Positions 26,360-48,548 of a DNA stretch of 64,000 nt are shown here, piece after piece. Source of the stretch: Nostoc sp. PCC 7524. Its GTDB lineage: Bacteria > Cyanobacteriota > Cyanobacteriia > Cyanobacteriales > Nostocaceae. Within the stretch, counting starts at the first letter, position 1. Each line of letters begins with the position of its first letter. The DNA lies in the NCBI RefSeq assembly GCF_000316645.1, contig NC_019684.1, positions 4,872,001-4,936,000 on the forward strand, read 5' to 3'. The notes beneath the pieces were generated by a model that saw only the letters and a program-made list of their open reading frames with translations, searched no databases and had not been told where the DNA came from. Made by a program: the position numbers and the translations under genes.

Positions 26360-28828
26360 TTGATCCAATCTGAAACATTAGAACTATTAGAATGGCATCG
26401 CCTTTGCCAGCATCTTTCCACGTTTGCGGCTACCAAACTAGGCGCGATCGCCTCACGCTGTCTGCAAATACCTACCTCTCAAGCAGTCAGTGAGCAGTTG
26501 TTAGCACAAACCAAAGAAGTCTATCAACTGGAAAGTCGTTTGACTCCAGGATTATCTTTTGAGGGAGTTCAAGATATTGGTGATTCCCTAGAACGGGCTG
26601 AACTCCAGGGTATTTTGGCAGGGGATGAATTGTTAGCGATCGCTACGACTTTAGCCGGGGCTAGAAATTTACGGCGTATTATTGATAACCAAGAAGATTT
26701 ACCCGTTCTCAATGAATTAGTTGCCGATTTACGGACTTACCCAGAATTAGAGCAGGAAATTCACCGTTGTATTGATGAACGAGGACAAGTAACTGACCGT
26801 GCTAGCCAAAAACTGGGAGAAATTCGCACGGAATTACGCAGATTACGCAGTCAAATCACGCAAAAACTGCAAAATATCTTACAGGCGAAATCAGGCGCAG
26901 TCCAAGAACAAATTATTACCCAACGGGGCGATCGCTTTGTTATTCCCGTAAAAGCACCGCAAAAAGATGCGATTCCTGGTATTGTACATGACACTTCTAC
27001 CAGTGGTGCAACCCTGTACATAGAGCCAAATTCGATTGTGCCAATGGGCAATCAATTACGGCAGACTGTGAGAAGGGAACAAGCTGAAGAAGAAGCCATT
27101 AGACGCATCTTAACTGAACAAATAGCAGCCGTTAAGCCAGATTTAGAAAGATTATTAGCAATTGTCACGACATTGGATTTGGCAACGGCTAGAGCTAGAT
27201 ATAGTTTATGGCTCAACGCCAACCCACCCAGATTTATCAGCCGTGAGGAACAGGAAATCATTACCTTAAGGCAGCTGCGCCATCCCTTATTGGTATGGCA
27301 ACAGCACCACGAACAAGGTCATCCGGTGATTCCTGTGGATTTGTTAATCAGTCCTCACATTAAAGTCGTCACGATTACCGGGCCGAACACTGGCGGGAAA
27401 ACAGTCACCTTAAAAACCCTCGGATTAGCTGCATTAATGGCCAAAGTGGGTTTATTTATCCCCGCCCGTGAGCCAGTGGAAATGCCTTGGTTTGAGCAAA
27501 TATTGGCAGATATCGGTGATGAACAATCATTACAGCAAAGTTTATCTACTTTTTCTGGTCATATTCGCCGCATTAGCCGGATTTTGAATGCTTTAGGGAC
27601 AGATGATAGGGGACAGGTGACAGGTGACAGGGAACAGGTGACAGGTGACAGGGGAGAAGAATTTTTACTTACTCCCCACTCCCCACTCCCCACTCCCCAC
27701 TCCCTAGTTTTACTAGATGAAGTTGGCGCAGGTACAGATCCTACAGAAGGTAGTGCTTTAGCGATCGCACTTTTACAATATCTGGCTGATCATGCCCAGT
27801 TGACGATTGCGACAACGCACTTTGGCGAGTTGAAAGCTCTGAAATATGAAGATGCACGTTTTGAAAACGCCTCTGTAGAGTTTAATGAGGCGACTTTATC
27901 TCCTACATACCGCTTGCTTTGGGGAATTCCTGGACGTTCTAATGCTTTGGCGATCGCTCTGCGTTTAGGACTAAAACCAGAAGTTATAGAACAGGCAAAA
28001 ACCCAAGTGGGAGAAGCTACAGATGAGGTGAATCAGGTAATTGCTGGCTTAGAAGACCAACGTCGCCGTCAGGAAACTAAAGCCGCAGAAGCGCAAAAAT
28101 TATTACAGCAGGCAGAACGGTTATATAAAGAGGTATCAGCTAAAGCTGCGGCCTTAGAGGAACGAGAACAGTCTTTACGGGCTTCCCAGGAAGTTGCAGT
28201 CCAGCAAGCGATCGCCCAAGCCAAAGGCGAAATTGCTAAGGTGATTCGGCGTTTGCAGCAAGGAACACCCACAGCCCAAGAAGCCCAACAAGCCACCAAC
28301 GCCTTAAATCAAATTGCCCAAACATATCAACCAGCAGCACCACCAAAACCCAAAGTAGGCTTCATGCCCAAAGTAGGCGATCGCATTCGCCTGTCCAAAT
28401 TTGGGCAAACAGCAGAAGTATTAACAGCTCCCGATGAAGATGGCGAGTTCAGCGTCCGCTTTGGGATTATGAAGATGATGGTCAAGTTAGAAGACATTGA
28501 ATCTTTGGATGGTCAAAAAGCCGAACCAGTCGTCAAACCCAAAGCAGCCCCAGCCGCGATCGCAGCACCACCCCAACCAGTCCTAGCCATTCGTACTTCC
28601 CAAAATACCGTCGATCTGCGTGGTAAGCGGGTAGCCGATGCGGAAATTCTTTTAGATAAAGCTATTTCCGAAGCGCAAGGGCAAATCTGGATTATCCACG
28701 GACACGGCACAGGGAAACTACGTCAAGGTGTTCACACCTTTTTACAACAGCATCCCAGAGTCAGCCGCTATGAGGCAGCAGAACAGTCTGACGGTGGTAG
28801 TGGTGTCACCATTGCCTATATTTCTTAA
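26360..28828 (+). CDS. mutS2: Endonuclease MutS2
   Basis: 822 aa starting at TTG 26360 (MIQSETLELLEWHRLCQHLSTFAA, the usual N-terminus). Core helices at 1-330, MutS-type ATPase with Walker A GPNTGGKT at 341-348, Walker B LVLLDEVGAGTDPTEGSAL near 450, a coiled-coil clamp at 540-660, and a C-terminal Smr nuclease domain (VDLRGKRVADAEILLDKAI and HGHGTGKLRQGV) at 745-822. MutS2 suppresses homologous recombination and, in other bacteria, rescues collided ribosomes. Odd: residues ~415-450 between Walker A and B are an in-frame insert encoded by GACAGGT- and CCCCACT-type repeats (27601-27704). Divergent from guaB3 across a 136-bp promoter region. Confidence 0.95.
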   Translation: MIQSETLELLEWHRLCQHLSTFAATKLGAIASRCLQIPTSQAVSEQLLAQTKEVYQLESRLTPGLSFEGVQDIGDSLERAELQGILAGDELLAIATTLAGARNLRRIIDNQEDLPVLNELVADLRTYPELEQEIHRCIDERGQVTDRASQKLGEIRTELRRLRSQITQKLQNILQAKSGAVQEQIITQRGDRFVIPVKAPQKDAIPGIVHDTSTSGATLYIEPNSIVPMGNQLRQTVRREQAEEEAIRRILTEQIAAVKPDLERLLAIVTTLDLATARARYSLWLNANPPRFISREEQEIITLRQLRHPLLVWQQHHEQGHPVIPVDLLISPHIKVVTITGPNTGGKTVTLKTLGLAALMAKVGLFIPAREPVEMPWFEQILADIGDEQSLQQSLSTFSGHIRRISRILNALGTDDRGQVTGDREQVTGDRGEEFLLTPHSPLPTPHSLVLLDEVGAGTDPTEGSALAIALLQYLADHAQLTIATTHFGELKALKYEDARFENASVEFNEATLSPTYRLLWGIPGRSNALAIALRLGLKPEVIEQAKTQVGEATDEVNQVIAGLEDQRRRQETKAAEAQKLLQQAERLYKEVSAKAAALEEREQSLRASQEVAVQQAIAQAKGEIAKVIRRLQQGTPTAQEAQQATNALNQIAQTYQPAAPPKPKVGFMPKVGDRIRLSKFGQTAEVLTAPDEDGEFSVRFGIMKMMVKLEDIESLDGQKAEPVVKPKAAPAAIAAPPQPVLAIRTSQNTVDLRGKRVADAEILLDKAISEAQGQIWIIHGHGTGKLRQGVHTFLQQHPRVSRYEAAEQSDGGSGVTIAYIS
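27601..27704. repeat. Heptamer repeats in frame within mutS2
   Basis: GGACAGGTGACAGGTGACAGGG units run to about 27652, followed by CCCCACT repeated five times (27673-27704). They are translated as DRGQVTGDREQVTGDRGEE and [11 protein letters not shown]. The same repeat types fill spacers elsewhere in the window (31738-31777, 55261-55282, 48446-48481). Confidence 0.9.
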
Positions 28829-29313
28829 GTCAGGGTATAGGAGCATGACGACAAATCTGTAGAGATGTTGCAATACAACGTCTCTACAGAGACGATTTTC
28901 ATTTGCATTGTTTAAGCAATAAATATAACTGGTGTTAGTTCCTAATTATTATCTTTTATGATTCCTATGCTGATGAAGCTGGCAATTAATAATTAAAAGT
29001 TAAATTATCCAGACATATTTATTTATACTTTTGTACTGAAATAGCAACCAAAGCAGGTAAATTTTACCAGCAAAGTTCACTTTTTCCACTGTTGAAAATA
29101 AATTTTCATCTAGTAGAGTAAGACAGTGACAATTGCTGTTTACCCAAAATAAGAAAAGCAAATGCAGTTAGGGAAGTAAGGGAAACAAGGGAGAATTTTC
29201 CTACCCCATGCCCCATCCCCCTGCCTTCTTACGGTACGGGAAACCAACTTTAAATATTCCTAGTCTGGTTTCAAAATGGGTAACAGCAACAGCCCCTATC
29301 AGCCTGATCACCT
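28829..29313. other. Spacer mutS2 - DUF3038 gene
   Basis: Besides the hairpin at 28858-28888 it is AT-rich, with a CCCCATGCCCCATCCCC fragment near 29205-29221. No gene is supported. The promoter of the DUF3038-DUF4335 pair should be here. Confidence 0.5.
28858..28888 (+). terminator. Hairpin after mutS2
   Basis: TGTAGAGATGTTG/CAACGTCTCTACA, a 13-bp stem with one G-T pair and a 5-nt loop, 30 bp after the mutS2 stop, followed by GAGACGATTTTC. The TAGAGACGTTG motif is also a common dispersed palindrome of Nostocales, so it may be a repeat serving as a terminator. Confidence 0.65.
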
Positions 29314-29919
29314 ATGCTAAAAGTTATGCACTCGGCCGCTGATTCAGCCACTCCCAATGCCCAGTGGGTGGACTTAACTAAACTTCCCGACCCCAATATT
29401 GTCCAATGGGATAATATCAAAACCCAGTTAGACTTGGTGCTGTTGGCGCTAGAAACTTTAACTGGTATTGGTTCCGAGGCTATGCTCTCGGCAGCAACTG
29501 ATCTGAATTTGGAGTCAAGAGTGCCAGACCGCGTTGCTTTATGGCGACTGCGACAGTCGAATCCCATACGCAAAGGTCAAGGAGGGCGAAAAAAACTAGA
29601 TGTGGAAGAAGCGCGATCGCTTGTTTTAATCATCTGTCACCTCGCCAAACAGCACCAGGAATTGATTCGCCGTGCGGTGAGTCTACTAGAACAAATGGCG
29701 GAAAAAAATCGAGAACCTCATCAGGTGGCTTTACTTGGAGATTATATTGATGCTTTCTGCAATACCTACCAAGAGCGGATGGAAGAAGACGAGCAAATCT
29801 CGACGGATTTACTTACCAAGTTGGCACTCAAACTGCTTGTAGATTTAATGTTTTACAGCGCCCCTGGTGGACATCGCCGACTCTGGTTAGCACTCATAGA
29901 TCGTTCCGCAAAATTTTGA
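29314..29919 (+). CDS. DUF3038-domain protein
   Basis: 201 aa, cytosolic, with no membrane segment. The segments LVLLALETLTGIGSEAMLSAA, RVALWRLRQSNPIRKGQGGRKKLDVEEARSLVLIICHLAKQHQELIRRAV and the C-terminal LALKLLVDLMFYSAPGGHRRLWLALID are the family signature as I recall it. It is mostly helical. Function unknown. The gene ends 25 bp before a DUF4335 gene on the same strand; this pair is a recurring cyanobacterial arrangement, so the products likely act together. The ATG at 29314 (MLKVMHSAADS) is used; the Met at residue 5 is an alternative. Confidence 0.8.
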   Translation: MLKVMHSAADSATPNAQWVDLTKLPDPNIVQWDNIKTQLDLVLLALETLTGIGSEAMLSAATDLNLESRVPDRVALWRLRQSNPIRKGQGGRKKLDVEEARSLVLIICHLAKQHQELIRRAVSLLEQMAEKNREPHQVALLGDYIDAFCNTYQERMEEDEQISTDLLTKLALKLLVDLMFYSAPGGHRRLWLALIDRSAKF

Positions 29920-29944
29920 AACAATCTCCCTTGCAGTTCCTGCT

Positions 29945-31534
29945 ATGCCTCTAACAAATTCTGTCATTCGTCGCTACACACCTCCTACCTGCACACTAGA
30001 AGTATTAGCGCAAAGTTCCCCTTTGTCGCGATTGCTAGGAAAAACCGTACTCAAGCAATTAACTTTTGAGTTGCGCTTTGATGATCCGCAGTTGCCAGTA
30101 GAACGCAGGTTTCAAATTCGAGGCGATCGCGACCAACTCGAAGCTTTGTGTGATGCTGTCACTACTTACGTACAGGAAATTCTGCAACAATCACCGGAAA
30201 GCTTTTGGTTCAGTTTCTCCGGTCTTCAAGATTCAACTAAAGTATCTCAAGACACAGAATTAACAGATTTTCAGCAAGCCCCTTTATTAGCTAAGACATC
30301 AAAATCATTTACAGCCCCAATACCAGGGACAAAAATCTACTTAGAATCTAACAGTTATTTAACACACAATTTATATCTTGGTTCTCTTGCTAATCCAGAT
30401 TCTGGGTCTGTTATTCAACTGAGTCTATTACAACTGTTCGATTTGGCAACTGCCCTAGATGAATATGCAGCAGATGTCATGACATTACCCACCCTGAATG
30501 AAAGTAGTTCAGTAGTACGCTTGCCTAATTGGGTTCCCATCGCAGCAATGTTAGTCATAGCTGTAGGTTTAACGCCTTTGACTTGGCAATATGCTAGTAA
30601 CACCAGGCAAAAACAACAGCAGACAGCTAAAACGACCACACCACAAGAAGAATCCGTTGCGCTACAACCTGCCCCCTCACCTAACTTTCCTGTACCTCAA
30701 ACTCAACTCACTCCTCCCTATAATGTTTCATCGCTACCTTTAGGTTCTACTCCTCAAGTACCACCCAATAGCAATTTTCCTACCACAACCCTGACATCTC
30801 CTGACCAAAATCTCACCTCAAATCCTGAGTTAGCTCCTAATTCCGTCGCTTCAACACAGACAGCAAATTTACCTCCAACACAAATTCCACCGTTGTCTGG
30901 CAACTCATCGAGTAACATCCCAGGTCAACAAATCGCTATTCAACCCAATCCCATAGGGACAAACAACTCGGCTGAATCTGCTCTTCCCATCAGGCGAAAT
31001 TTACCTCCGAGATTGTCTTCTACACCCGCACCTGTTCCGCCACCACTAGCTACTCTACCTAATGCCAGTGGTAACAACACCATTCCTCAAACCTACTCAC
31101 CAGTCAATTCACAACAGTCGCAAGCTAGATTAAATTCCGCAGCAACTACCCCCTCGGAAGTGGCTGATGCCAACTCATTAATAGCAAGATTGAGGGGTGA
31201 ATCTAACACTACACCCACAGAAGTATCTGTCAACAGTAGCAGTACACTATTTGATACACCACAGGTAGTAGAAGCCAGAGAATTTTTGCAGAGACGCTGG
31301 CAGCCACCCACAGGATTTACCCAAACTCTAGAATATAGTTTGATTTTGGGTGTTGATGGCTCAATTGAACGCATCTTACCTTTAGGAAAATCCGCCAGAG
31401 ATCACTTTGATGCAGTGGGAATGCCTGCTATTGGCGCACCTTTTGTTTCTGCTAATCGCTACGGACAAAATACCAGAATTAGAGTTCTTCTCAGTCCAGA
31501 TGGCAGGGTACAGACTTTTCCTGAACGTGATTAG
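29945..31534 (+). CDS. DUF4335-domain inner-membrane protein with TonB-like C-terminal domain
   Basis: 529 aa in four parts. Residues 1-190 are a soluble domain (VIRRYTPPTCTLEVLAQSS, KQLTFELRFDDP), the DUF4335 family region. Residues ~196-216 form one transmembrane helix (WVPIAAMLVIAVGLTPLTWQYA). Residues ~220-440 are a proline/serine/threonine/asparagine-rich linker, probably spanning the periplasm. Residues ~441-529 are a small domain resembling the TonB C-terminal fold (FLQRRWQPPTGFTQTLEYSLILGVDGSIERILP, IRVLLSPDGRVQTF). The arrangement implies a cytoplasmic domain linked across the envelope, an unusually large cytoplasmic part compared with TonB. Function unknown; the TonB-like reading is inference. 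Confidence 0.75.
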   Translation: MPLTNSVIRRYTPPTCTLEVLAQSSPLSRLLGKTVLKQLTFELRFDDPQLPVERRFQIRGDRDQLEALCDAVTTYVQEILQQSPESFWFSFSGLQDSTKVSQDTELTDFQQAPLLAKTSKSFTAPIPGTKIYLESNSYLTHNLYLGSLANPDSGSVIQLSLLQLFDLATALDEYAADVMTLPTLNESSSVVRLPNWVPIAAMLVIAVGLTPLTWQYASNTRQKQQQTAKTTTPQEESVALQPAPSPNFPVPQTQLTPPYNVSSLPLGSTPQVPPNSNFPTTTLTSPDQNLTSNPELAPNSVASTQTANLPPTQIPPLSGNSSSNIPGQQIAIQPNPIGTNNSAESALPIRRNLPPRLSSTPAPVPPPLATLPNASGNNTIPQTYSPVNSQQSQARLNSAATTPSEVADANSLIARLRGESNTTPTEVSVNSSSTLFDTPQVVEAREFLQRRWQPPTGFTQTLEYSLILGVDGSIERILPLGKSARDHFDAVGMPAIGAPFVSANRYGQNTRIRVLLSPDGRVQTFPERD

Positions 31535-31538
31535 TTAT

Positions 31539-31571
31539 TAGTCAATAGTCATTAGCTATGACTATTGACTA
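31539..31571 (+). terminator. Hairpin after the DUF4335 gene
   Basis: A 14-bp perfect stem, TAGTCAATAGTCAT/ATGACTATTGACTA, with a 5-nt loop, 5 bp after the stop codon and followed by TTTCAAATTCC. It is AT-rich; a terminator or a repeat palindrome. Confidence 0.6.
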
Positions 31572-31671
31572 TTTCAAATTCCAGAATGGCGTTGATGCCA
31601 ATTATCAAACTGGTACAATTTTTGTGCCAGTTTTTAGTTTATCTCAGTGGTGTTGACTAACTTTTAACTTG

Positions 31672-31780
31672 TATAGCTGTAGTCAATGAGATTAGGACAT
31701 CAGAAATCATAAAACCATTACCATCAGAGACTTTTAAACCTGTCACCTGTCACCTGTCACCTGTCACCTGTCACCTGCCA
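31672..31780. repeat. Dispersed ~105-bp repeat, copy 1, ending in CACCTGT heptamers
   Basis: TATAGCTGTAGTCAATGAG... ATTAGGACATCAG... AAATCATAAAACCATTACC... ends in 5.7 copies of CACCTGT (31738-31777). A second copy lies at 56493-56600 with a shorter, degenerate heptamer tail. Both lie just downstream of the 3' end of a minus-strand gene. Confidence 0.85.
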
Positions 31781-31826
31781 TAAATAACGAAAGGAATTTT
31801 GAGAATAGCTGTGAAATTTTGCCTAC

Positions 31827-32822
31827 TTAACCGATTAAGTCAGCGCGAGGCTTAAAGGTTTCAATTTGCCGTAACTTTTCATACAGTTCCCGTTCTTCCT
31901 GACTAATATTTTTCGGGGTAACTATTTGAATTTCGACTAATTGATCCCCACGTTTACCATTTTCGGCAGGATAGCCTTTATTGGCCAAGCGGAATCTTTG
32001 TCCAAATCTGACTCCAGGCGGGATGGTCATTTTCACAGGCCCGTCGAGGGTTGGTGCTTCTACCTGTCCACCTAAGACGGCTTCCGAGGGAGTGACTGGG
32101 ACTTGGCAAACTATATTTGAGCCTTCTAGTTTAAATAATGGATGGGGTTCAACGGTAATTTTTAAATAGAGATCACCGCCGCCAATGCCTTGATTTCGCA
32201 GGCGGACACTTTGCCCTGTCACCATACCTGGAGGCATATTCACCTCTAGCGATCGCCCATCTTCTAAACGAATGCGTTCTTTACCACCCAAATAAGCTTT
32301 TTCTAAGGGTAGGGTTAATCTTGCTTCGATATCTCGACGTGTGGGACGAGGTGGGTTTTTGGGAACTGTGTACTCAACTCGGCTTTTGGGAGAACGAAAC
32401 GGATCGGTAGTGGTGCTACTTGTACCATTTCTGGTATCTCGACGCGCACCAACACCAACGACTTGATTAATAAAGTCTTCAAAATTAGAGAACTGACTGG
32501 GGTCTACATTTTGATTACCATTGCGTTCGCCAGTACGTTCCCAAGCTTTGGGTTTTGGTGCTTGTTTACTAAAGCCTTTTTGCTTCCAGTAGCGGCTAAA
32601 CTGGTCGTACTGGGCGCGTTTAGCTGTGTCGGAGAGGACTTCATAAGCCTCACCGATATCTTTAAACTTTTCTTCTGCGGCTTTATTTCCTGGATTGAGA
32701 TCAGGGTGATACTGTCTGGCTAAACGTCGATAATTCTTCTTAATTTCTTCATTGGTAGCATCTTTAGCTACTCCCAAAATTTCATAGTAATCGCGGAAAT
32801 TCTGCAAATTTTGCATATTCAT
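31827..32822 (-). CDS. dnaJ: DnaJ-type co-chaperone (no zinc-finger domain)
   Basis: 331 aa. The J-domain is at 11-80 with the HPD motif at 39-41 (ARQYHPDLN). A G/S/N-rich linker follows, and the C-terminal substrate domains are the DnaJ CTD I/II ([64 protein letters not shown]). The CxxCxGxG zinc repeats of class A DnaJ are absent, so it is a class B (CbpA-like) protein. It stimulates ATP hydrolysis by DnaK and delivers clients. It lies downstream of dnaK on the same strand (200-bp gap), the arrangement of the DnaK3/DnaJ pair in other cyanobacteria. Confidence 0.93.
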
Positions 32823-33022
32823 TTATTTAACTTTTAAATTTTAGATTTTGGTAATCGTTAATTAGTAATGAATAATATCAATGTTCAATTACTAATTACT
32901 AATTACCAATGGCTAAATCCGAATTGTGAATTAAGTTCAGAAGGAAGAGTCCATAGTCCATAGTTCATGGTCATTGGGCATGGGATTTTTCTCCTGCTTC
33001 CCAATCCCCAATCCCCAAAACA
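32823..33022. other. Spacer dnaK3 - dnaJ with repeat fragments
   Basis: It holds TAATTACTAATTACTAATTACC-like repeats (32887-32908) and CCCAATCCCCAATCCCC (32999-33016). No CIRCE element (TTAGCACTC-N9-GAGTGCTAA) is seen. dnaJ is probably transcribed from dnaK3 or from a promoter here. Confidence 0.5.
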
Positions 33023-35089
33023 CTACAGCCAATCATCATCATCATCCCAGTTATCCTGATAACTTGGGCGGGAAGGACGGCGTGATGGACGACTGTCATA
33101 GGGAGAACGGCTATCTCTTCCGTAATCTTGGTTGTAATCTCGTCCGAAGTTATCCCGTTGTCGATAGTTATCGCGGTAATTGTCTCGGTAATAGTCGCGA
33201 TCGCGTTCTTTTTCTTTGTCGCCTGTAAAGATGTCCTTAATGGTGCTGAATAAGTCGTCGTCTTCATCTTCAGCATAATACTCACGGACTTCCCGATTTA
33301 GCTCATAGAGAGCATCTTGCAGGTCGGCGTAGGCTTGATCGATGCCGCGATCGTCTTTTTCTTGCAGACTCTCTCGCAGTTCTCGGCAAATGTTATCAAT
33401 ACGTTGGCGGCGACTACGGGCAAACTGCATTCCAAATTCTAAGGCGACTTCTCGCAGTTGTCGTTCTGCTTGGAGAATTAAGGCCTCAGAACGGGTACGT
33501 TTTTCTACCCTTTCTTTGCGTTCCCGGTCGATGTCAGCATATTTTTGTGCATCCTGAATCATCCGGTTGATTTCGCCTTCACTCAAGGTAGAAGCACCTT
33601 GAATGGTAATACTTTGCTCCCGTCCTGTGGTTCTATCTAAAGCTGATACCTGTAAAATCCCGTTAGCATCGATATCAAATGATACTTGAATTTGGGGTAT
33701 ACCTCTGGGGGCTGGCGGAATACCATAGAGTTTGAAGCGTCCCAGCGATTTGTTATCTACGGACATTTCCCGTTCACCTTGGACAACATGGATTTCCACA
33801 CTGTTTTGGTTATTTTCGGATGTGGAGAAAATATCAGAACGGCGGACGGGGATGGTAGTGTTGCGGGGAATGAGTTTTTTCATTACACCGCCAATTGTTT
33901 CTAAGCCCAAGGACAGGGGTGTGACATCTAATAACAGCACATCTTTAAATTCTCCGGCGAGAATGCCTGCTTGAATGGCTGCACCCATAGCGACGACTTC
34001 ATCCGGGTTGACATTTTCGCTAGGGTCAATGCCAATCATATCCCGCACCAGTTGTTTTACCATTGGCATTCGTGTCGAACCACCCACTAACACGACTTCT
34101 TCAATGTCATCGGGGCGTAAACCGGCATCTTTTAAAGCCCGTTTAACTGGTGTGCGGATGCGTCCTAATAAGTCACTACATAAACCTTCAAACTGGGCGC
34201 GTGTCAGGCGAGTTTCTAAATGTTTGGGGCCGTCTTCTGTGGCGGTAATGAAGGGTAAGTTAATGTCGGTGACGCTGACGGCAGAAAGTTCAATTTTGGC
34301 TTTTTCTGCGGCTTCCATCAGACGTTGTAAGGCTTGGCGATCGCGTCGCAAGTCTACACCTTCTGCTTCTAAAAATTGTTCTGCTAACCAATCAACGACT
34401 TTCTTATCAAAGTCATTACCACCTAGTTGGGTATCGCCACTGGTAGCTTTAACTTCAAATACCCCATCGCCTACTTCCAGAATTGATACGTCAAAAGTTC
34501 CACCACCCAAGTCAAAGACTAAGATGGTTTCCGTATCACCCCTGTCTAAGCCATAAGCGAGAGATGCGGCTGTTGGTTCATTGAGAATCCGCAACACCTC
34601 TAACCCAGCAATTCTGCCCGCATCACGGGTTGCCTGTCTTTGGGAATCATTAAAATAAGCGGGAACTGTAATTACTGCCCCGGTGACGGCTGCGCCTAAG
34701 TAAGTGCTGGCATCATCTGCCAACTTTTTCAGCACCATTGCCGAAATTTCTTCTGGGGCAAAGTCTTTATTCAGTCGAGGACAGGCGATTTTGATGTTAC
34801 CTACTTCGTCTTTGCGGATAGTATAGGGTACACGCTTCGAGTCTGGGCTGAGTTCGCCATACCTGCGCCCAATAAAGCGTTTGACTGCAAAAAAAGTATT
34901 TTGAGGGTTGAGGACTGTTTGTCGCCGTGCCATTTGCCCAACCACCCTTTCGCCTTCTTTGCTGAAGCCTACAACGGAGGGGGTTGTTCGCATTCCTTCT
35001 GCATTGGCAATCACCACCGGCTTGCCACCCTCCATTACGGCGACTACTGAGTTGGTTGTACCCAAGTCGATGCCGACTACCTTGCCCAT
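33023..35089 (-). CDS. dnaK: Hsp70 chaperone, DnaK3 type
   Basis: 688 aa. The N-terminal [24 protein letters not shown], the phosphate loops IDLGTTNS and [10 protein letters not shown], and the adenosine motif [11 protein letters not shown] mark a complete nucleotide-binding domain (1-385). The substrate domain follows ([17 protein letters not shown] etc.). In place of the EEVD-like acidic end of DnaK2, the C-terminal ~70 residues are a charged, Y/D/R/N-rich tail ([13 protein letters not shown]..., DDDDDWL), as in cyanobacterial DnaK3, which is thylakoid-associated and essential in Synechocystis. The adjacent class B dnaJ supports the DnaK3 assignment. The tail looks intrinsically disordered and repetitive. 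Confidence 0.92.
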
Positions 35090-35390
35090 GCGTTACTCTT
35101 CTCCTAAGTGTGTCTTATACATTGATCATGATTGGGCAGAACTGCCTCTAGCTTGCTGCTACAGGGTGCAATTGCCTCAATGGTATAATAGTCATCATCA
35201 AGGCAACAATTGGAAGAATTAAAGCTTGAGGAGTTAGTTGCAAGACTAGGATAACATTGACCACGCTTAGTATGTCCTAGCGGTCTGGAATCTTGTAGAC
35301 CATTTATTCAACTTCATGACACCTTCAAGTTGGGAAATCCACCCAGACAATATTTGTTTTTTACTTTGATATTACAACTGTACTAAACAC
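35090..35390. other. Divergent spacer dnaK3 - M28 peptidase
   Basis: No gene. An extended -10 promoter element TGGTATAAT (TATAAT at 35184-35189) points to the plus strand, 200 bp before the peptidase start, without a good -35. No CIRCE operator is present. Confidence 0.5.
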
Positions 35391-36239: not shown

Positions 36240-36299
36240 TTGAGAGAACTTCATTGACTAAACGTACAAACCAATCTCTCTGTGTCATACTCTGCGCTT

Positions 36300-36411
36300 A
36301 CCTCCCTTTGGGTGGCGCTCCTAGCGTCGCTAACGCTGCGCTAACACCAGTCGTCTACGGAGGGAAACCCTCCTACAACGCTGGTTCACCACGCTCCCTT
36401 TGCGTTTATGA
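36300..36411. repeat. Dispersed palindrome-rich element
   Basis: CTCCCTTTGGGTGGCGCTCC... GCGTCGCTAACGCTGCGC... and the hairpin GGAGGG-AAA-CCCTCC (36358-36372). It has the character of the iterated palindromic repeats of Nostocales. No gene. Confidence 0.6.
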
Positions 36412-37620: not shown

Positions 37621-37820
37621 GTGCCACTTTACTTAGGTAGATCCTATTTCTTTATTAACACACGGCTTCTATGTGTATTTTCGCAATTTAGCGTAAAATT
37701 TAGATGTAATGCTCATTCTCACTGAAGGGATGCGATCGCACTTTATGAATACGCACTACTAACTAACTGTCTTTGGGTGTAATCATCTTCGTACACCACA
37801 GGCGATCGCAGACAATAAAA

Positions 37821-37966
37821 TTAATTTCGTTACCAACGTAATTGATTTTGTTACCACACAATTCAGTTTCGTTACCAACGTAATTGATTTCGTTACCACA
37901 CAATTCAGTTTCGTTACCAACGCAATTGATTTTGTTACCACAAGATTCAGTTTCGTTACGAATGCG
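37821..37966. repeat. 42-bp tandem repeat built from 21-bp subunits
   Basis: Three 42-bp units (37841-37882, 37883-37924, 37925-37966) follow half a unit at 37821-37840. Each is two 21-bp halves: ATTGATTTTGTTACCACACA plus one base, and a TTCAGTTTCGTTACCAACG variant. Units 1 and 2 differ at two positions. On the minus strand the array is in an open frame (37763-37987, GTG start) that encodes alternating heptapeptides GNETELC and GNKINYV. There are no unique spacers, so it is not CRISPR. Confidence 0.85.
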
Positions 37967-38105
37967 AGTTGTTTTCAGTATTATCACTAAATAACATTAA
38001 TTAACTTGTTGTAAAAAATACAAATATTTGTGAATTCTGCTGACCCAGAAACTTAGCTTTGTAGGTCAAGCTAGTATTGGAAACCTACAAACCAGAGTGC
38101 ATTCT

Positions 38106-38501: not shown

Positions 38502-38705
38502 TGCCGGAGGTAGGGGGCGAGAGAGTTTTAATCTAGTGTATCTTGATTAACATATTTGTGTTTTTCCCCCCGACTTACTCAGAAAATGTCATTACGAACT
38601 GCGAATTGCGATCTTCGGAGCAGGGCGTTAGTCCATTGCAAATTGGTATAAGTTGCACATCGCGCTAATCTACAAATAGCGGTGCTGGCAATTGAGGAAC
38701 TGACA

Positions 38706-42389
<3,684 letters not shown>

Positions 42390-42463
42390 AACGCAGATGA
42401 ACGCAGATGAACGCAGATGAATTACATTGGGGTTTTGATACCGCGATCGCTACGTTTCTTCTA
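42390..42463. repeat. Three copies of AACGCAGATG
   Basis: A decamer tandem repeat at 42390-42419 follows the oxoprolinase stop by zero bases. It lies between convergent genes. Confidence 0.6.
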
Positions 42464-42826
42464 CTAAAACTCTAGGTATTTACAATTTTCATCCTCCACA
42501 AGCTTACGCAAACTTTGCAGGGTTTTCAGCTTATAGGTGGCTTTTGTGTATTCTTGCTTTGAGGGGGAATCACCTAAATTTTTCAGCACATCATCACTTT
42601 CTTGAACAATTGTATCTCGCAAGAAGTCGCTAAACTTTCTGCGATTTCCACCCTCAAGGGGAATAACAGAAGTTTTAACAGCTTCTCCATCAGGTTTCAT
42701 CTCCATTTCTTGAGGTTCTGCAATCCTAGAAAAGTCTGATTGCTGTAGCCACTCGTAAAAGTTCTGTGAAACGTCAACTGCTTCTACGGTCGCTTTGTCT
42801 TGTGAGTAGAATACTATATCTAACAT
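42464..42826 (-). CDS. 120-aa hypothetical protein
   Basis: Not recognised. Soluble, acidic: MLDIVFYSQDKATVEAVDVS then NFYEWLQQSDFSRI, EGGNRRKFSDFLRDTIVQESDDVLKNLGD, a helical C-terminus KATYKLKTLQSLRKLVEDE. The ATG at 42824-42826 overlaps the TAA of an upstream nuclease-like remnant by one base (TAATG). The two were therefore once a coupled operon, which suggests a partner such as an antidote, regulator or subunit for that protein. It may now be expressed alone or not at all. Confidence 0.55.
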   Translation of the reverse strand: MLDIVFYSQDKATVEAVDVSQNFYEWLQQSDFSRIAEPQEMEMKPDGEAVKTSVIPLEGGNRRKFSDFLRDTIVQESDDVLKNLGDSPSKQEYTKATYKLKTLQSLRKLVEDENCKYLEF

Positions 42827-43041
42827 TAGCCTTCCTCCTGAGCTTCAGATTCCATAAACAGCTTCTCTGGGACATTTTCTGCATATGCTACATCATGCTC
42901 ATCAAAGAGTTTCTTTGCTGGCTTTGTAATTATCCCTGTGGTTAAGACAGCAGATACACCTCCCTTATTAATAATCTTTTTTGCTAAGGTTGAATCAATC
43001 TGTTTACGAGTTTTAATCTCAATATAGGATTCATATTTGAT
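42826..43041 (-). pseudogene. C-terminal remnant of a PD-(D/E)XK-type nuclease
   Basis: An open frame of 71 codons with no start codon: after an upstream TAA (43042-43044) it reads IKYESYIEIKTRKQIDSTLA, then KKIINKGGVSAVLTTGIITK and PAKKLFDEHDVAYAEN. YIEIKT is the E-x-K of a PD-(D/E)XK/Mrr-like site, and AVLTTGIITKPAKKLFDEHDV is the strand-helix that follows in restriction-endonuclease folds. The N-terminal two-thirds, with the first acidic residue, is missing. The upstream DNA is heptamer repeat (CTACTCC x4, 43081-43110) that has probably replaced it. Family placement is inference from this short piece. Confidence 0.5.
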
Positions 43042-43146
43042 TTATGAAAAAAAATCCGTACACTCAAAAATCCCTCTTTCCTACTCCCTACTCCCTACTC
43101 CCTACTCCCTGCCTACGCAGATAATTTCAAAAATCAAAGCGGATTC

Positions 43147-43454
43147 CTATAGAGCTTTTATATCACCTGTTTTGAAGGTGCGACGTTTATAAACCTTATA
43201 TAGCTGCTCTAACTCTTTATCTTTAGGAGTGTAGTTAATCGGCTGACTTAAATATTCAATATAAGCCCGAAACTCATCCTTTTCTAAAGTTGTATCAACA
43301 GAATTCTTGATCGAAAACCTCGTTTAACTACTGCTTTGCCAAACTGTTCAAAAGTCACTTCTGGACAATCGGAAAAGTCAATATCCTGATCATTCATAGT
43401 ATCCAGTCGTTGCCAATCAGTCTGAGATTTGCTCGCAATAGGTTCGTTGTTCAT
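43147..43454 (-). pseudogene. Frameshifted BrnA-like antitoxin remnant
   Basis: ATG at 43452-43454: MNNEPIASKSQTDWQRLDTM, then NDQDIDFSDCPEVTFEQFGKAVVKRG, the N-terminal signature of BrnA-type antitoxins (WxRLDxMxDxDIDFSDCPEIT). After RGF the frame ends at TAG 43284-43286. Switching frame near 43310 restores an open frame to TAG 43147-43149 (SIKNSVDTTLEKDEFRAYIEYLSQPINYTPKDKELEQLYKVYKRRTF), whose end is not BrnA-like. The gene is therefore broken or chimeric. No BrnT toxin gene was found beside it. Confidence 0.5.
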
Positions 43455-43492
43455 ATTTTAGTTCAACAATTTTCGGCATCCAGTCAATAAAA

Positions 43493-43521
43493 AGCGATCG
43501 CACCTGACTAATGCGATCGCT
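43493..43521 (-). terminator. Terminator of map built from two HIP1 octamers
   Basis: AGCGATCGCA/TGCGATCGCT, a perfect 10-bp stem with a 9-nt loop, 22 bp downstream of the map stop and followed on the minus strand by TTTTATTG. Each arm contains a GCGATCGC HIP1 site. Confidence 0.8.
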
Positions 43522-43543
43522 CTTTAATCTCTTGCTTGCTAAA

Positions 43544-44371
43544 TTAAACTTTGGTGCGATCAGTCAAAATTTCATAACCTGTGTCTGTCACCAAAACTGT
43601 ATGTTCAAACTGTGCTGACAAGGAATTATCGACAGTTACAGCCGTCCATCTATCTGATAATGTTCTGGTGTGTTTAGAACCGGCATTTAAAATTGGTTCA
43701 ATCGCCAGAGTCATCCCTGCGCGCAGTTTAACATTAGGCATTTCCCGTGTACGGAAGTTAAACACAGAAGGTTCTTCGTGTAAATTGCGTCCTACACCAT
43801 GTCCGGTGAATTCTTCCACCACACTATAACCATTGGCTTTGACATGATCTTCAATTGCGCCAGCCAAATCCAGCAGATATGCACCAGCTTTTACTTGTTC
43901 AATGCCTTTATAAAGTGCTTCTTCAGCAACACGAATCAGTCTAGCGGCTTCTGGGGTAACTTCACCCACGGCGATAGTAATACAGGAATCACCATGAAAC
44001 CCTTGATAATAAGCACCTGTATCTACTTTTAATACATCCCCAGCCCGAATTACTTTTTTAGGACTAGGGATACCATGCACAACTTCATTATTGATACTGG
44101 AGCAGATAGAACCAGTAAAACCATGATATCCCTTAAAACTGGGGGTTGCGTCCATTTCACGGATGCGTTTTTCCGCATAAGCATCCAAATCAGCCGTAGT
44201 CATTCCTGGCTTGACTAACTCCGAAATTTCTTTAAGGACAGTTGCCACAATTTTCGCTGATTGCCGCATAATATCAATTTCACGCGGCGATTTAATTTCA
44301 ATACCCCGGCGTTGTTTGGGTGATGTTGTAGGCTTAGGTGCTTGAGACAGTAAGTTGGTGAGGATGTTCAT
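43544..44371 (-). CDS. map: Methionine aminopeptidase, type I
   Basis: 275 aa. It has the dinuclear metal ligands: D in [24 protein letters not shown] (two Asp), H in [18 protein letters not shown] in LAIEPIL and E in [12 protein letters not shown]. An N-terminal extension of about 25 residues ([14 protein letters not shown]) precedes the core, which begins [16 protein letters not shown]. It removes the initiator methionine from nascent proteins. This is one of several map paralogs usual in cyanobacteria. The ATG at 44369-44371 is used. Confidence 0.95.
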
Positions 44372-44534
44372 GGAAAGTTAGTGATTACTTGCGCCTTACC
44401 GCTAAATTACAGTGTTTTACCTAAAGTTTAGTTGAGAAATACTATCCATATTTACGTTAGCTTATTTTTTGTTGCGAATTAGTCATTAGTCATTAGGCAT
44501 TAGACATTGGATTTTCCTCCTCTGCTCCCCTGCC

Positions 44535-44999
44535 TCACTTACTAGCGATCGCAATTTCCCCTGTCATCCCTGCTTCCGTATGTCCAGGGATAGAACAGCG
44601 TAAATTATATTTTCCTGGCTTCATTGGCACAAATACCCATTCGGCTGTTGCGCCTGGTTTTAGTTCCAGTTCATGGATTGCGCCTTTAATCTCCACTTTC
44701 CCGGCTTCGACTTTTTGTGTCCAGATACCGTCAGCAAAATCTTTCGCTGTAAAGTAGTGCTTCATTTGACTGGGATTAGTTAACCGCAGTTGATACCGTT
44801 TCCCCGCTACAAAGTCTAAATGATTCGGCTCAAACTTAAGTTCGTTAGCACCATTACCTAAACTCACGGTAACTTCTGTAGCAGGTAGCTTGAGTAAATC
44901 ACCAGTATAATTTGCCGCGATCGCTGGACTACCAATCATCAAACCCAGACAAACCAACAATCCCAAAATCACACAGCCACGCCAAACTAATTTCACCAT
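44535..44999 (-). CDS. Secreted cupredoxin-domain copper protein
   Basis: 154 aa from the ATG at 44997-44999, which starts a clean signal peptide (MVKLVWRGCVILGLLVCLGL, cleavage near PAIAA). The longer frame to 45038 adds MAQRYAQSYAEYT, encoded by a dispersed CGCAAAGTTACGCGGAG-type repeat, and is rejected. The cupredoxin ligand set is visible: His in MKHYFTAKDF, and C, H, M in LRCSIPGHTEAGMTG. It is larger than plastocyanin and closer to the plastocyanin/azurin-like domain proteins. It probably carries or stores copper in the periplasm; electron-carrier function is possible but not shown. It is immediately downstream of the M16 protease gene. Confidence 0.85.
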   Translation of the reverse strand: MVKLVWRGCVILGLLVCLGLMIGSPAIAANYTGDLLKLPATEVTVSLGNGANELKFEPNHLDFVAGKRYQLRLTNPSQMKHYFTAKDFADGIWTQKVEAGKVEIKGAIHELELKPGATAEWVFVPMKPGKYNLRCSIPGHTEAGMTGEIAIASK

Positions 45000-45054
45000 A
45001 GTATACTCCGCGTAACTTTGCGCGTACCTCTGCGCCACTCTGCGTTTCTACTCA

Positions 45055-47889
45055 TTATCTAACACTTTGGTTAGCCAACATAGCCGGGCCTGCTGTCACC
45101 ACAACCAAGTTATCAGGATGCAATAACTCACGAGCAGCTTGATTAACATCCGCCAAAGTAACTTGCTCAATCTTCTGGCTATAAGTATGTAATTCCCCTG
45201 TGTCTAACCCATACACCTGATTCATCAAGATTGTAGTGATTAACTCCTCTGGATCTGCTAAAGAAACCTTATAGCTACCAATCAGACTACGTTTAGCTGT
45301 CTCTAATTCTGTAGCTGTGACACCATGTTGATGAATTTCCTGAAGGAGTTTGCGGGTACTAGCGATCGCCTGATTCGCATCTTCTGGACTGGTTTGCATT
45401 TCAATCCAAAATGTCCCAAAATCTTTTTCGGCTTGGAAGTGGCTAAAAATTCCGTAAGTCAAACCTTGGCGATCGCGTACTTCTGCTCCGAGACGACTAG
45501 ATAATGTATCCCCCCCTAAAATTTGATTTAAAACCAAAGCTGCGTAAAATCTGGGATCTTGACGTTTGATACCTGTATAACCCATGTAAGTAATAGCTTG
45601 AGCTTTACCGGGAACAACAGGATTCACCCGCACAATACTGCTAGGGTTGGAAACTTGGGGATATTCTACACTTGGTGGTTCACCACTAACGCGCCAATCA
45701 CCAAATTCTGCTTCTATGAGAGATCGCACTTGTTCTGGTGCAAAATCTCCAGCGATCGCCAATACCATCGTATCTGGACGATAGTATTGATTTTGGAAAG
45801 CAACAACATCTTTTTTTCTAATGCGTCGTAAACTCTCCTGCGTCGGAAATTTGTGGAGAGGATGTTTTGTAGGGTAAATCGATTGTAAAAAGATTCGTCT
45901 AGCTACTGCTGAAGGATCATCTAACTCTTGCTTGAATTCTGTGAGAGCTTGTTGTCGATTCAATTCCAAATCTTTTTGGGGAAATGTACTATGTTTAATG
46001 GCATCAGCTAAGGTGTGGATTAAAACAGGCAAATCTTCAGCGAGACTATTACCCTCAATTTCTACACCATTGCGGTAAGCGGCAAAGTCCAAAGTCGCTC
46101 CCCTGTCTTCTAAAGCTTGCGCCAAGGTGGAGGCGTTTTTGGTTTTAGTCCCATCCATCAAGCTATCTGCTACCAGTGAGGCTAATCCAGCTTGTTCCAC
46201 TGGATCAAATTCTGTACCTGCTTTGATATAACCACTTAAAGTGATGGTGGGTGTTGAGCGATCGCTCAACAATAATACCTGTAAACCATTAGCTAATTTA
46301 AATTGCTGTGGTAGTTTCAGCGTAGTGTTGGGGGAATTACTTTGAACAGTATCAATGGCTGGTAGATACTGCATCATCTCAGCCAGTGGCACAGGCGAAT
46401 TACTTGATAAATTTTCTGTAGTTTGTCGTGGTGAGTGTTTTCCACCAATTTCCTTACTTTGACTGATAATTGGTTGAAAAATCCCCACAGTTTGGGCAGA
46501 CTTGGACAGATATTTGTTTAATACATCCACAACATCGGCGGTGCTAACTTGACGAACGGCTGCTAAATAATAATCTGTGAAGCGATAATCACCAGTAGTT
46601 GTCTCATCATTGCCTAATTGCATGGCTTGATCGGTGATACTACGGTTACTCAAAATTGTGGCAGCTTCTAACTGTCTTTTAGCTCTAGCTAATTCTGCGG
46701 CTTTTACTCCTTTAGTTAGTTTGGCGATCGCATTATTCAACACCGACTCAATTTTAGTCAAATCTTGGTCAGGATCTGCTGTCACCGATAACTCATACCA
46801 ACCAGCCTGTTCTAAAGTCACTACCGAACCAGATATATCAGTGGCTAAACCCGATTCTATCAAGGCTTGATACAGTCGAGAATTTCTCCCTTCCGTCAAG
46901 ATATAATCAGCTACCTCTAAAGCTGCTATATCTTGGTGATTTGCTTGTGGTAGCGGATAGATAGCTTTTAATAATGTTGTCGATCCTGGTTCTCGGAGGA
47001 TGATGGGGTTGGGAACTGGGGATTGGTGACTGGGGAATGGGAACTGGGATTTTTGGCTATGGACTCTTGACTGTTGACTCTTGGGGATATTACCAAAAAT
47101 TTCTTTCACAGCTGCTAAAGTTTTGTCAGCTTGGCAATCGCCAACAATTACTAAGACTGCGTGATCGGGATGATAAAACTGTTGATAATATTTCCGTATT
47201 TGCTCAACCTGGAATTTTTCTACATCTGCCTTAGTTCCCCCCACAGGTAAACCATAACCATGATTGGGAAATACTGACCGCAGAATAGCACGATTAAGAC
47301 GATATTCCGGGCTATTTTCATAACCCTGCAATTCGGAAATGACTACTCGCTTCTCGCTAGCTAGTTGTTCACTATCCATCAGAGCATTTTGCATTCTATC
47401 TGCTTCTAGAACTAACAATGCTTTGAGCTTTTCTCGTTCTACCGTACCATAATAAGCTGTTTGGTCATAGCTAGTAAAAGCATTTGAGTCGCTACCTAAA
47501 GCACTCAACAACCAACCAAATTGCGTCGGACGGTTGGCTGTGCCTTTAAACATCATATGTTCGAGTTGGTGGGCAATGCCATTAACTCCCGGTGCTTCGT
47601 GGCGTGAACCGAACTTATACCAAACTTGCACACTCACAACCGGAGCTGTGTGTACTTCCTTAATTAATACAGTGAGTCCATTTTCCAGCACTGTCTTCTG
47701 GACGTTTTCTGTTAATTTCAAATCTTGATGATTTTTAGCCACTAATGTTACTGGGTGATTAACTCGACTAGAGCTATTTATATGTTGACTTTCAGCAAGT
47801 TCATTGCCAAGAAATAATACCGCAACTAATGAAATCACAAACAGCAACAAATAGAAACGGTATCTATAGCAAGCTGATAATACAGACAT
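45055..47889 (-). CDS. M16-family (pitrilysin/insulinase) zinc protease, two-repeat form
   Basis: 944 aa. An N-terminal membrane/signal segment (RFYLLLFVISLVAVLFLGNELA) implies export. The first half has the inverted zinc site H107-QLE-H111 (GIAHQLEHMMFKGT) and the downstream ligand Glu; the second half (~520-940) is the inactive M16 partner domain with REVRDRQGLTYGIFSHFQ, the R/Y signature. The protein would be a periplasmic or outer-envelope peptidase that trims peptides. Odd: residues ~268-301 (SQQSRVHSQKSQFPFPSHQSPVPNP) are encoded by ACTGGGGATTG-type intergenic repeat DNA (~46985-47080) and lie in the first domain between LAAVKEIFGNIP and ILREPGSTTL. The cupredoxin gene follows after 55 bp. 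Confidence 0.92.
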   Translation of the reverse strand: MSVLSACYRYRFYLLLFVISLVAVLFLGNELAESQHINSSSRVNHPVTLVAKNHQDLKLTENVQKTVLENGLTVLIKEVHTAPVVSVQVWYKFGSRHEAPGVNGIAHQLEHMMFKGTANRPTQFGWLLSALGSDSNAFTSYDQTAYYGTVEREKLKALLVLEADRMQNALMDSEQLASEKRVVISELQGYENSPEYRLNRAILRSVFPNHGYGLPVGGTKADVEKFQVEQIRKYYQQFYHPDHAVLVIVGDCQADKTLAAVKEIFGNIPKSQQSRVHSQKSQFPFPSHQSPVPNPIILREPGSTTLLKAIYPLPQANHQDIAALEVADYILTEGRNSRLYQALIESGLATDISGSVVTLEQAGWYELSVTADPDQDLTKIESVLNNAIAKLTKGVKAAELARAKRQLEAATILSNRSITDQAMQLGNDETTTGDYRFTDYYLAAVRQVSTADVVDVLNKYLSKSAQTVGIFQPIISQSKEIGGKHSPRQTTENLSSNSPVPLAEMMQYLPAIDTVQSNSPNTTLKLPQQFKLANGLQVLLLSDRSTPTITLSGYIKAGTEFDPVEQAGLASLVADSLMDGTKTKNASTLAQALEDRGATLDFAAYRNGVEIEGNSLAEDLPVLIHTLADAIKHSTFPQKDLELNRQQALTEFKQELDDPSAVARRIFLQSIYPTKHPLHKFPTQESLRRIRKKDVVAFQNQYYRPDTMVLAIAGDFAPEQVRSLIEAEFGDWRVSGEPPSVEYPQVSNPSSIVRVNPVVPGKAQAITYMGYTGIKRQDPRFYAALVLNQILGGDTLSSRLGAEVRDRQGLTYGIFSHFQAEKDFGTFWIEMQTSPEDANQAIASTRKLLQEIHQHGVTATELETAKRSLIGSYKVSLADPEELITTILMNQVYGLDTGELHTYSQKIEQVTLADVNQAARELLHPDNLVVVTAGPAMLANQSVR

Positions 47890-48011
47890 TTATTTGGTAG
47901 ATGTATAAAAAAAAATTATTTCTTGTGCGGAGAATCATCTAATTCTCCTGAAGATATGTTACCTCGGAGACATTGATAATGTATATAAAAACACAAAACA
48001 AACAAAATAAA

Positions 48012-48440
48012 CTAATGAAGTTTAGTTAAAAGTCTCAAGAACTCCAATGGTAAACCATCAGTATCAGCAATGAAGGCAACTTCCCAAATGCGATCGCCTA
48101 TCTGCTGCTGTGTTGGTTCCAATAAAATCTTTAAAGGTGATAATTCCGCGCTTTCTGACACACGCTCTTGTAAATTTGTCAACCACCCTGGTAAATCTGG
48201 GGTAATCTCAGTTAAATCAAAGGACAGGTGATAGTACCCCACATAATGTTCATCTCCGAACGCATCCGGTGCTGGTTTTGGTTGGGGAATTTGGATAAGT
48301 TCAATTCTGCCGCCCAAGCCTTCCATCCAGCAAGCGAGGGTATAGCCTGTAGTGAAGCGTTCACAGACTGTGAAGCCTAGTATTTCATAAAAGGCGATCG
48401 CTTGATGGATATTCGCAGTCCGAATAGAAGCGTGGTGCAT
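48012..48440 (-). CDS. VOC (glyoxalase-type) protein
   Basis: 142 aa from the ATG at 48438-48440 (MHHASIRTANIHQAIAFYEIL). The longer frame to 48521 begins with GGGGATTG repeat-encoded PPSQSPVPNPQSPIPK and is rejected. It has the beta-alpha-beta-beta-beta vicinal-oxygen-chelate pattern: AIAFYEILGFTVCERF, TLACWMEGLGGRIELIQIP, and VAFIADTDGLPLEFLRL with the metal-ligand Glu in PLEFLRL. The substrate is unknown; lactoylglutathione-lyase-like function is only one possibility. It is downstream of TIGR02652 on the same strand, with 108 bp between them occupied by the repeats. Confidence 0.83.
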   Translation of the reverse strand: MHHASIRTANIHQAIAFYEILGFTVCERFTTGYTLACWMEGLGGRIELIQIPQPKPAPDAFGDEHYVGYYHLSFDLTEITPDLPGWLTNLQERVSESAELSPLKILLEPTQQQIGDRIWEVAFIADTDGLPLEFLRLLTKLH

Positions 48441-48548
48441 TTTGGGGATTGGGGACTGGGGATTGGGGACTGGGGATTGGGAAGGGGGAATTAGAGAATT
48501 AATTTCACCCCTAAACCCCACACCCCTACACCCCTAAATTCATCAAAT

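Follow-up and report, generated by a model that had tools for sequence, protein, structure and literature searches.

Heptamer repeats within conserved genes

The window analyzed here is a stretch of 64,000 nucleotides (4,872,001-4,936,000 of the main contig) from the 6.72 Mb genome of Nostoc sp. PCC 7524 (G000). In this stretch, tandem heptamer repeats occupy spacers and also lie inside the genes for MutS2, a hydantoinase A/B fusion (oxoprolinase) and an M16 peptidase (Table 1). A preliminary description of this DNA had claimed in-frame repeats in all three genes, with three sites in the oxoprolinase. The arrays in all three genes were confirmed to be in frame and free of stop codons. The third oxoprolinase site has a shorter array, in a short loop that holds other residues in relatives. 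The inserted peptides are indeed encoded by the DNA repeats that fill spacers, and they are located in loops that some relatives have in a short form and others have occupied by different repeat peptides.

Table 1. Repeat arrays, their host genes and other features of the window (window coordinates).
Feature	Position	Strand	Remarks
Yfr1 small RNA	24730-24794	-	Rfam, 61.8 bits; upstream of thioredoxin-like open reading frame 24272-24595 (by eye)
mutS2 (MutS domain V, Smr, MSSS; Pfam)	26360-28828	+	Insert lies past the helix that follows SGHIRRISRIL and ahead of Walker B strand LVLLDE
MutS2 insert, G-rich arm	27598-27655	+	GACAGGT units with a 21-bp higher-order period
MutS2 insert, AT-rich core	27656-27670	-	Together with its edges, gives TAAAAATTCT on the minus strand, which spacer copies share
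MutS2 insert, C-rich arm	27671-27704	+	CCCCACT units, TPHSPLP peptide
Hydantoinase A/B (oxoprolinase) fusion (Pfam)	38709-42389	+	Start 38709 chosen; open from 38682
Oxoprolinase site 1	39385-39466	+	Degenerate G-rich arm, core, C-rich CCCCAGT arm (array 39429-39466)
Oxoprolinase site 2	40800-40834	+	CCCCACT array; lies in the linker joining the A and B halves
Oxoprolinase site 3	41160-41190	+	Short C-rich repeat, SRLPHPHSP; loop length varies in relatives
M16 peptidase (Pfam)	45055-47889	-	Heptad-repeat linker between FGNIPK and ILREPG
M16 insert	47004-47048	-	CCCCAGT-type array (coding strand) next to AACAGTC-type units
GGGGAYT array	48442-48481		Upstream of the conserved VOC protein; a second, C-rich array follows at 48506-48534
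ATTAGTC array	44478-44508		About 26 bp beyond the cupredoxin stop codon (gene at 44535-45038)
GCAGAAG-type array	1038-1069	-	C-terminal end of SDR-like open reading frame 1020-1739 (SDR by eye)
GGGACTG array	49822-49853		Directly after the stop of open reading frame 49192-49821 (hexapeptide-repeat protein by eye)

Viewed on the minus strand, the MutS2 insert runs as (GGGGAGT)n, AAG, TAAAAATTCT, TCTCCCC and (TGTCACC)n. Thirty-four copies of TAAAAATTCT were found on both strands of the 2.0 Mb surveyed, and 14 of them adjoin a G-rich arm (background rate, 0.7%); the chance of meeting this sequence in a random 40-base stretch, calculated from its frequency, is 0.0003. Units 2, 5 and 8 of the GACAGGT arm would give an in-frame TGA or TAA, and all three carry an altered base. 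In the HMMER alignment, the MutS2 structure 7qv3, which we take to be that of B. subtilis, has two residues (406-407) opposite residues 412-445 of the Nostoc protein. The AlphaFold model of MutS2 was poor (mean predicted local distance difference test score, 64.6; residues 368-459 below 50). It placed a predicted coil at 414-447 between a helix (388-413) and a strand (448-453), the whole ATPase part being unreliable.

Abundance and placement of heptamer arrays

A pattern of three CCCCAGT units with up to 3 mismatches gave 814 + 821 = 1,635 matches in the 6.72 Mb genome, compared with 10 + 1 = 11 for the reversed control. Arrays were surveyed in 2.0 Mb of the genome, taken as four stretches, against open reading frames (ORFs) called mechanically (at least 120 amino acids, greedy), which cover 80% of the surveyed DNA. 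Period 7 was dominant among tandem repeats, with 227 seeds as opposed to 0-33 for periods 2-6 and 8-13; its multiples (14, 21, 28 and 35) gave 24-67 seeds. CCCCAAT- and CCCCAGT-type units were the two commonest of 38 (41 and 31 of the 227 seeds).

After merging, 367 heptamer arrays remained: 242 in spacers, 75 across an ORF edge, 32 internal (at least 40 codons inside an ORF), 12 less than 40 codons from the N-terminal end and 6 less than 40 codons from the C-terminal end. The internal arrays are distributed over 23 ORFs, two of them doubtful (the survey ORFs at 3218965 and 5961866 are doubtful). Pfam identified, among others, CobN (5 arrays at 4 sites), MutL, RecO, Mfd, SMC, a UvrD-like helicase, a NurA protein, TrpD and a PHO4 transporter. 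Peptides of the PNPQSPIPNPQSPI type are predicted in CobN, RecO and MutS2.

Proteins of DNA repair and chromosome maintenance account for 7 of the 23 ORFs with internal arrays (MutL, SMC, UvrD-like, MutS2, NurA, Mfd and RecO; G000 positions 455076, 3612290, 3715133, 4898360, 4962676, 5647559 and 5906034), seemingly a large share, as judged from the 13 of the 23 ORFs that were scanned with Pfam.

A polar two-armed unit with recurrent cores

The preliminary description had taken the heptamer array as the unit. Many arrays are indeed single and have no partner arm, but often the unit is two-armed instead, with a G-rich arm, an AT-rich core and a C-rich arm. Labelled array pairs no more than 60 bp apart (n = 63) stand in G-rich-then-C-rich (GC) order in 53 cases, CC in 7, GG in 3 and CG in none. 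The polarity weakens and then inverts with the distance between the paired arrays (GC:CG, 53:0, 16:1, 7:2, 4:12 and 17:37). The same order was found at 80 named loci around MutS2, where 24 of 32 pairs are GC (14 in MutS2 loops and 10 elsewhere) and none is CG. Repeat-bearing spacers of 80-500 bp (n = 232) gave 108 GC and 22 CG. That G-then-C order is a general property of spacers was rejected, as repeat-free spacers (n = 487) showed 119 GC and 100 CG. A lone heptamer array as the sole unit was likewise rejected, given that adjacent arms are paired in one order and cores are shared.

With the heptamer arm written first, the element is composed of (GGGGAYT)n, a core rich in A and T (e.g., GGGTAAAAATTCT) and a C-rich arm whose units are mostly 8-9 nt long (e.g., ACCTTGTCT, CTCATCTCC and CTGCTCCC). 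Since the inward-running strand of each arm is the G-rich one, both strands of a copy show the G-rich part first and the C-rich part second. Independence of the two arms was rejected: GGGGAYT occurs in both arms of 1 of the 53 pairs, whereas 8.2 were expected (P value, 5 × 10−5), and the arm opposite GGGGAYT is mostly made of 8- or 9-mers. With arms that are unlike in unit and variable in length, the element does not correspond to a fixed-length palindrome that forms a stable stem-loop.

AT-rich cores recur between the arms, namely GGGTAAAAATTCTACCTTGTCT with its variants (core A), AGGAATAATAACTCTC, TTAGATAAATATTAGTATTCTCC, GGGAAGACTCTCCCTTGTC and others. When 117 GGGGAYT arms were compared, the sequence on the junction side matched that of another arm in 46 (up to 3/16 mismatches), that on the outer side in 11; shuffled and random controls gave 3 and 0, respectively. 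Arms within ORFs behaved in the same way, the junction matching a copy elsewhere in 10/26 and the outer side in 0/26. The arm pattern used excludes GGGGAGT arms, so MutS2 is not among these 26. Where arms lie at least 40 codons from both ORF ends, the junction was shared in 7/15 (4 at no more than 1 mismatch) and the outer side in none. These seven arms belong to CobN (two), RecO, the UvrD-like helicase, a histidine kinase (by eye), the oxoprolinase and one doubtful ORF. Matches to spacer copies were found for CobN (0/16 mismatches) and the UvrD-like helicase (1/16). In oxoprolinase site 1, the core matches core A on the minus strand at 16 of 21 positions, and the loop is short or different in relatives.

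Core A has 35 copies in G000 with up to 2 mismatches and none in the reversed control. By the same threshold, 58 relatives carry 0-4 copies each, with any copy in 11 of them. By eye, core A copies share an ordered C-rich arm (ACCTTGTCT, CCCCTCACTCCC, a palindromic insert in some, CCTCATC, CCTACTC and CTGCTCC), a pattern suggestive of a single copied sequence in which the segments expanded in different ways. Several C-rich arms contain the short palindromic insert CCCTACGGGTAGG. Core A copies are also clustered on contig G000:C2, with 7 within 26 kb (2183658-2209605) and 4 within about 21 kb (3044419-3065652), a clustering that hints at local copying or duplicated genes.

Turnover of loop contents among relatives

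MutS2 loops were compared at 109 of 110 loci (L118 lacks the required motif); some of these loci represent one genome present under both a handle and a name. There are 95 distinct loops of 7-74 residues, by the boundaries chosen, and no conserved sequence was found in them across the 109 loci. The DNA order in loops of at least 20 residues (n = 74) is GC in 63, GG in 8, CC in 3 and CG in none. Lag-7 autocorrelation was 0.49 in the loops, and a control stretch from these genes gave 0.23. Among the pairs listed, unrelated loops occur at 97.4% and 96.3% identity of the flanks (1.2 kb) in L054/L057 and L064/L072, and loops differing by exactly 7 residues occur in L037/L108 and L067/L093. Judged by MutS2 score, G007 is the nearest among the relatives compared, and its loop peptide is the same as in Anabaena sp. 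4-3 (L010 and L066); the closest named MutS2 relatives are of the Anabaena/Trichormus/Nostoc type.

Some cyanobacteria have short MutS2 loops (L099, L100, L102, L103, L110, L111, L113, L116 and L117). Outside the Nostoc group, L108 carries heptads in its MutS2 loop, and L114 has a long loop without them. Loops L012, L015, L073, L057 and L084 contain what seem to be other dispersed repeats (LPLIPRG-EFP type, VLQAGEPVQRTGS), and the MutS2 loop may accept several repeat families.

Alignments of the remaining proteins covered 19/30 loci for the oxoprolinase, 23/30 for M16, 23/26 for CobN and 13/24 for RecO, the other RecO loci having failed a motif filter. CobN has four loop sites, which are short in the order-level relatives L327-L329, and RecO has one. 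Ortholog alignment had been proposed in the preliminary description, with coincidence between inserts and family loops named as a point against its claim. The result goes partly that way: the MutS2, M16, CobN and RecO loops are shared by many relatives, each filled differently.

Genome load is patchy, ranging from 11 to 2,216 matches of a two-unit pattern within the genus and reaching 1,457 and 884 in two order-level relatives. The heptamer content of CobN tracks this load (11/12 high-load versus 0/9 low-load genomes; Spearman 0.78, uncorrected for kinship), and three genomes with 0-4 load matches (G040, G041 and G043) have short CobN loops. When applied to the heptamer content of genes, the load pattern misses the MutS2 and M16 units of G000 itself.

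A spacer between lpxA and lpxB (genes assigned by eye) shows the same G-then-C design with other units across the genus. Fourteen such spacers were measured (G000, 11 genus-mates, G013 and G014), and 12 of them are in GC order; that of G007, longer and with extra sequence between the arms, failed the filter and is not among the 14. The spacer is occupied in most relatives and no empty site was seen among those read. Since it was matched across the genus, such sites are long resident and their contents turn over. The earlier suggestion that repeats invade coding DNA and are tolerated in loops thus holds for the tolerant loops, but the sites are old and their turnover is fast, which does not amount to fresh invasion at many places.

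Reading frames and folding

C4-type units make up 24 of the 32 internal arrays but 79 of the 242 spacer arrays (P value, 7.5 × 10−6). The three commonest C4-type units are stop-free on both strands and encode peptides such as NPQSPIP and GDWGLGI, and the coding strand is C-rich in 23 of the 32 internal arrays. A 7-bp array encodes the same seven residues, rotated, in all three frames of a strand; its phase is therefore free, and only the total length and stops are constrained.

Folding was compared with shuffled sequences for five element stretches (a sixth, from L227, was folded too but held no element and was not counted). Two folded better than their shuffles (z, −2.88 and −2.98), and the MutS2 insert (z, 0.65), the oxoprolinase insert (−0.63) and one spacer copy (0.36) did not. 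An RNA hairpin as the common denominator is thus unsupported, with 3/5 stretches folding no better than shuffles.

Relation to known repeats

The heptamers of the window are the known short tandemly repeated repetitive (STRR) sequences, heptamers of heterocyst-forming cyanobacteria with units of the CCCCAAT/CCCCAGT type, although here they belong to a larger unit than the lone heptamer. The arrays consist of tandem 7-bp units, occur many times per genome, and have units of that type, in a probable member of the same host group. STRR sequences were reportedly described by Mazel in 1990, and Vioque in 1997 is said to have found them in the RNase P RNA gene, which by the title places them inside a functional RNA gene (both studies as cited in PMC2670836 and PMC4748335). 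Elhai in 2008 reportedly described small dispersed repeats of Nostoc punctiforme, non-tandem units of 21-27 nt that often lie within heptamer arrays; the short palindromic insert in several C-rich arms here may be a parallel. What sets the heptamers here apart from STRR sequences as described is that they make up one of two unlike arms in a unit whose cores recur, and that many conserved proteins carry them in frame. At the level of titles and abstracts, no description of a two-armed architecture with unlike arms or of loop turnover was found, although the studies by Elhai and Vioque may contain parts of it.

The heptamers themselves, their abundance in spacers, and small repeats in frame within proteins (in Rickettsia) were thus already known. 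STRR sequences have been used for strain fingerprinting (PMC5088731). In the parts of Rehm 2015 covered (PMC4692102), a GGGGA(C/T)T repeat of Nostoc PCC 7120, the same heptamer as here, is 68% intergenic and forms few pairs in Nostoc, while two Xanthomonas genomes contain 70 and 75 convergent GGGAATC pairs; those parts hold no analysis of protein loops. Pairing is common in the present survey, unlike in that Nostoc count, because the partner arm uses other units, mostly of 8-9 nt.

Small repeats that lie in spacers and in frame in conserved proteins, which tolerate them, are known as Rickettsia palindromic elements (RPE; Ogata 2000, as cited by Delihas 2007, PMC2229807). The 242 spacer and 32 internal arrays found here, with CobN, RecO, MutS2 and others confirmed by Pfam, resemble them in this respect. 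RPEs measure 105-146 bp and have terminal inverted repeats and a long predicted stem-loop, whereas the Nostoc repeat is a tandem array of variable length with unlike arm units and no fixed ends seen.

Origin of the in-frame peptides

Copies of the element occupy spacers and, in frame, a limited set of tolerant loops in conserved genes. We consider it rather probable that the in-frame peptides come from coding copies of a two-armed repeat that is dispersed and asymmetric, with loops overwritten by copies and sieved by reading frame and stops. Slippage would lengthen and shorten the arms, and copies located elsewhere in that genome would overwrite the whole contents of a loop. Overwriting between loci is suggested by the shared junctions, the lineage-amplified core subfamily and the unrelated loops at near-identical flanks. 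Selection would then retain versions with a length that is a multiple of three and no stop, which may account for the observed unit bias. The inserts are probably flexible, neutral linkers, rich in Gly/Asp/Glu and then in Pro/Ser/Gln.

Several observations weigh against this explanation. The oxoprolinase junction match is weak (3/16 mismatches), and 39 places in the 2.0 Mb reach 16/21 to core A, 26 beside arrays and 13 not, which makes this core match weaker than that of MutS2. In the core comparison, core A was absent from oxoprolinase sites 2 and 3 and from the M16 insert. No shared junction at up to 3/16 mismatches was found for 16 of the 26 arms within ORFs, and 4 of the 10 arms that share one lie in N-terminal extensions or a doubtful ORF. 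Relatives carry many related copies other than core A, so that the core A count reflects a subfamily and not the whole element. By eye, core A copies showed no fixed ends, nor was a target duplication seen; terminal inverted repeats and such a duplication would mark a MITE. The heptamer content of M16 does not track genome load (Spearman 0.20; P value, 0.36), that of MutS2 tracks it moderately (8/15 versus 1/15) and that of the oxoprolinase weakly (2/4 versus 1/11), and some GGGGAYT-poor genomes (G023) have long MutS2 loops made of other repeats. Spacer arrays are barely more open than shuffled ones (3.92 versus 3.71 of 6 frames). Finally, the old lpxA-lpxB site shows residence rather than movement, and no empty site was obtained at the DNA level.

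Slippage in place might suffice by itself, if old low-complexity linkers generate heptads and their likeness to spacers comes from a common mutational bias. The 7-residue length steps between close relatives and the dominance of period 7 everywhere speak for it, as do the M16 linker units, which are unlike the main unit of the genome. We nevertheless regard it as unlikely, as it does not predict the strict G-then-C order, 7/15 inner arms (those of CobN and the UvrD-like helicase among them) share junction cores with distant copies, and unrelated loops occur at 96-97% flank identity. The order itself is what would be expected from end healing, in which G-rich repeats are added to both 3' ends at a DNA break and the ends are joined, only in-frame loop scars surviving in genes. 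It corresponds to a head-to-head fusion, in spacers and genes alike, and it recurs in an unrelated phylum as the convergent Xanthomonas pairs (PMC4692102, as far as covered). This account is quite unlikely, however, because the arms are not independent and near-identical AT-rich cores stand at many loci, whereas independent scars should not share cores. There is a slim chance that spacers and loops of Nostocales are lined with fusion scars made by the same process as in Xanthomonas, the shared cores resulting from later overwriting between scars. If true, such scars would be the bacterial equivalent of interstitial telomere fusions.

That the repeat is under selection as an RNA or DNA structure, be it a hairpin, a terminator or a G-quadruplex, with gene copies as by-products, could be proposed from the two element stretches that fold better than shuffles, from G-quadruplex formation by the heptamers in vitro (PMC4692102) and from an STRR hairpin in the hoxW promoter region (PMC2670836). 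It is very unlikely: C-then-G order would make an equally good hairpin, yet none was found within 60 bp, units at the same site differ between relatives, and the folding of the other three stretches does not fit. Most improbable of these explanations is that the inserts are retained as adaptive linkers that tune enzymes. That many Nostocales keep the same loops occupied and that seven repair and chromosome proteins are among the host ORFs would agree with it, whereas the MutS2 loops have no conserved sequence and CobN loop content follows the repeat load of the genome, down to the short loops of the three genomes that nearly lack load matches.

The findings open long-known heptamer filler DNA of heterocyst-forming cyanobacteria to testing, as a polar two-armed repeat that has cores, copy numbers and a core subfamily amplified in one lineage. 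The MutS2, CobN, RecO and M16 loops, which carry different peptides in relatives, constitute a natural repeated experiment in protein tolerance.

Other arrays and features of the window

Repeats had also been placed at the ends of the SDR, VOC and cupredoxin frames. The SDR-like ORF does carry a real C-terminal repeat, its SDR identity being assigned by eye alone. The other two claims did not stand, as the array near the VOC gene lies upstream of the protein part conserved in relatives and the cupredoxin gene has no repeat in frame. The VOC open frame spans 140-149 amino acids in 11/12 genus-mates, 173 here, 178 in G009 and up to 200 in more distant relatives. For annotation, heptads should not be called conserved domains, nor should starts be extended through them, as in the VOC frame.

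Two ORFs terminate within or at the edge of the arrays at 55248-55282 and 49821-49853, which thus border or supply the stop codon. A different tandem repeat, with a period of 21/42 bp (TTTCGTTACCA), occupies a spacer at 37819-37959. At the gathering threshold, Yfr1 was the only Rfam match between 24000 and 50000 of the window.

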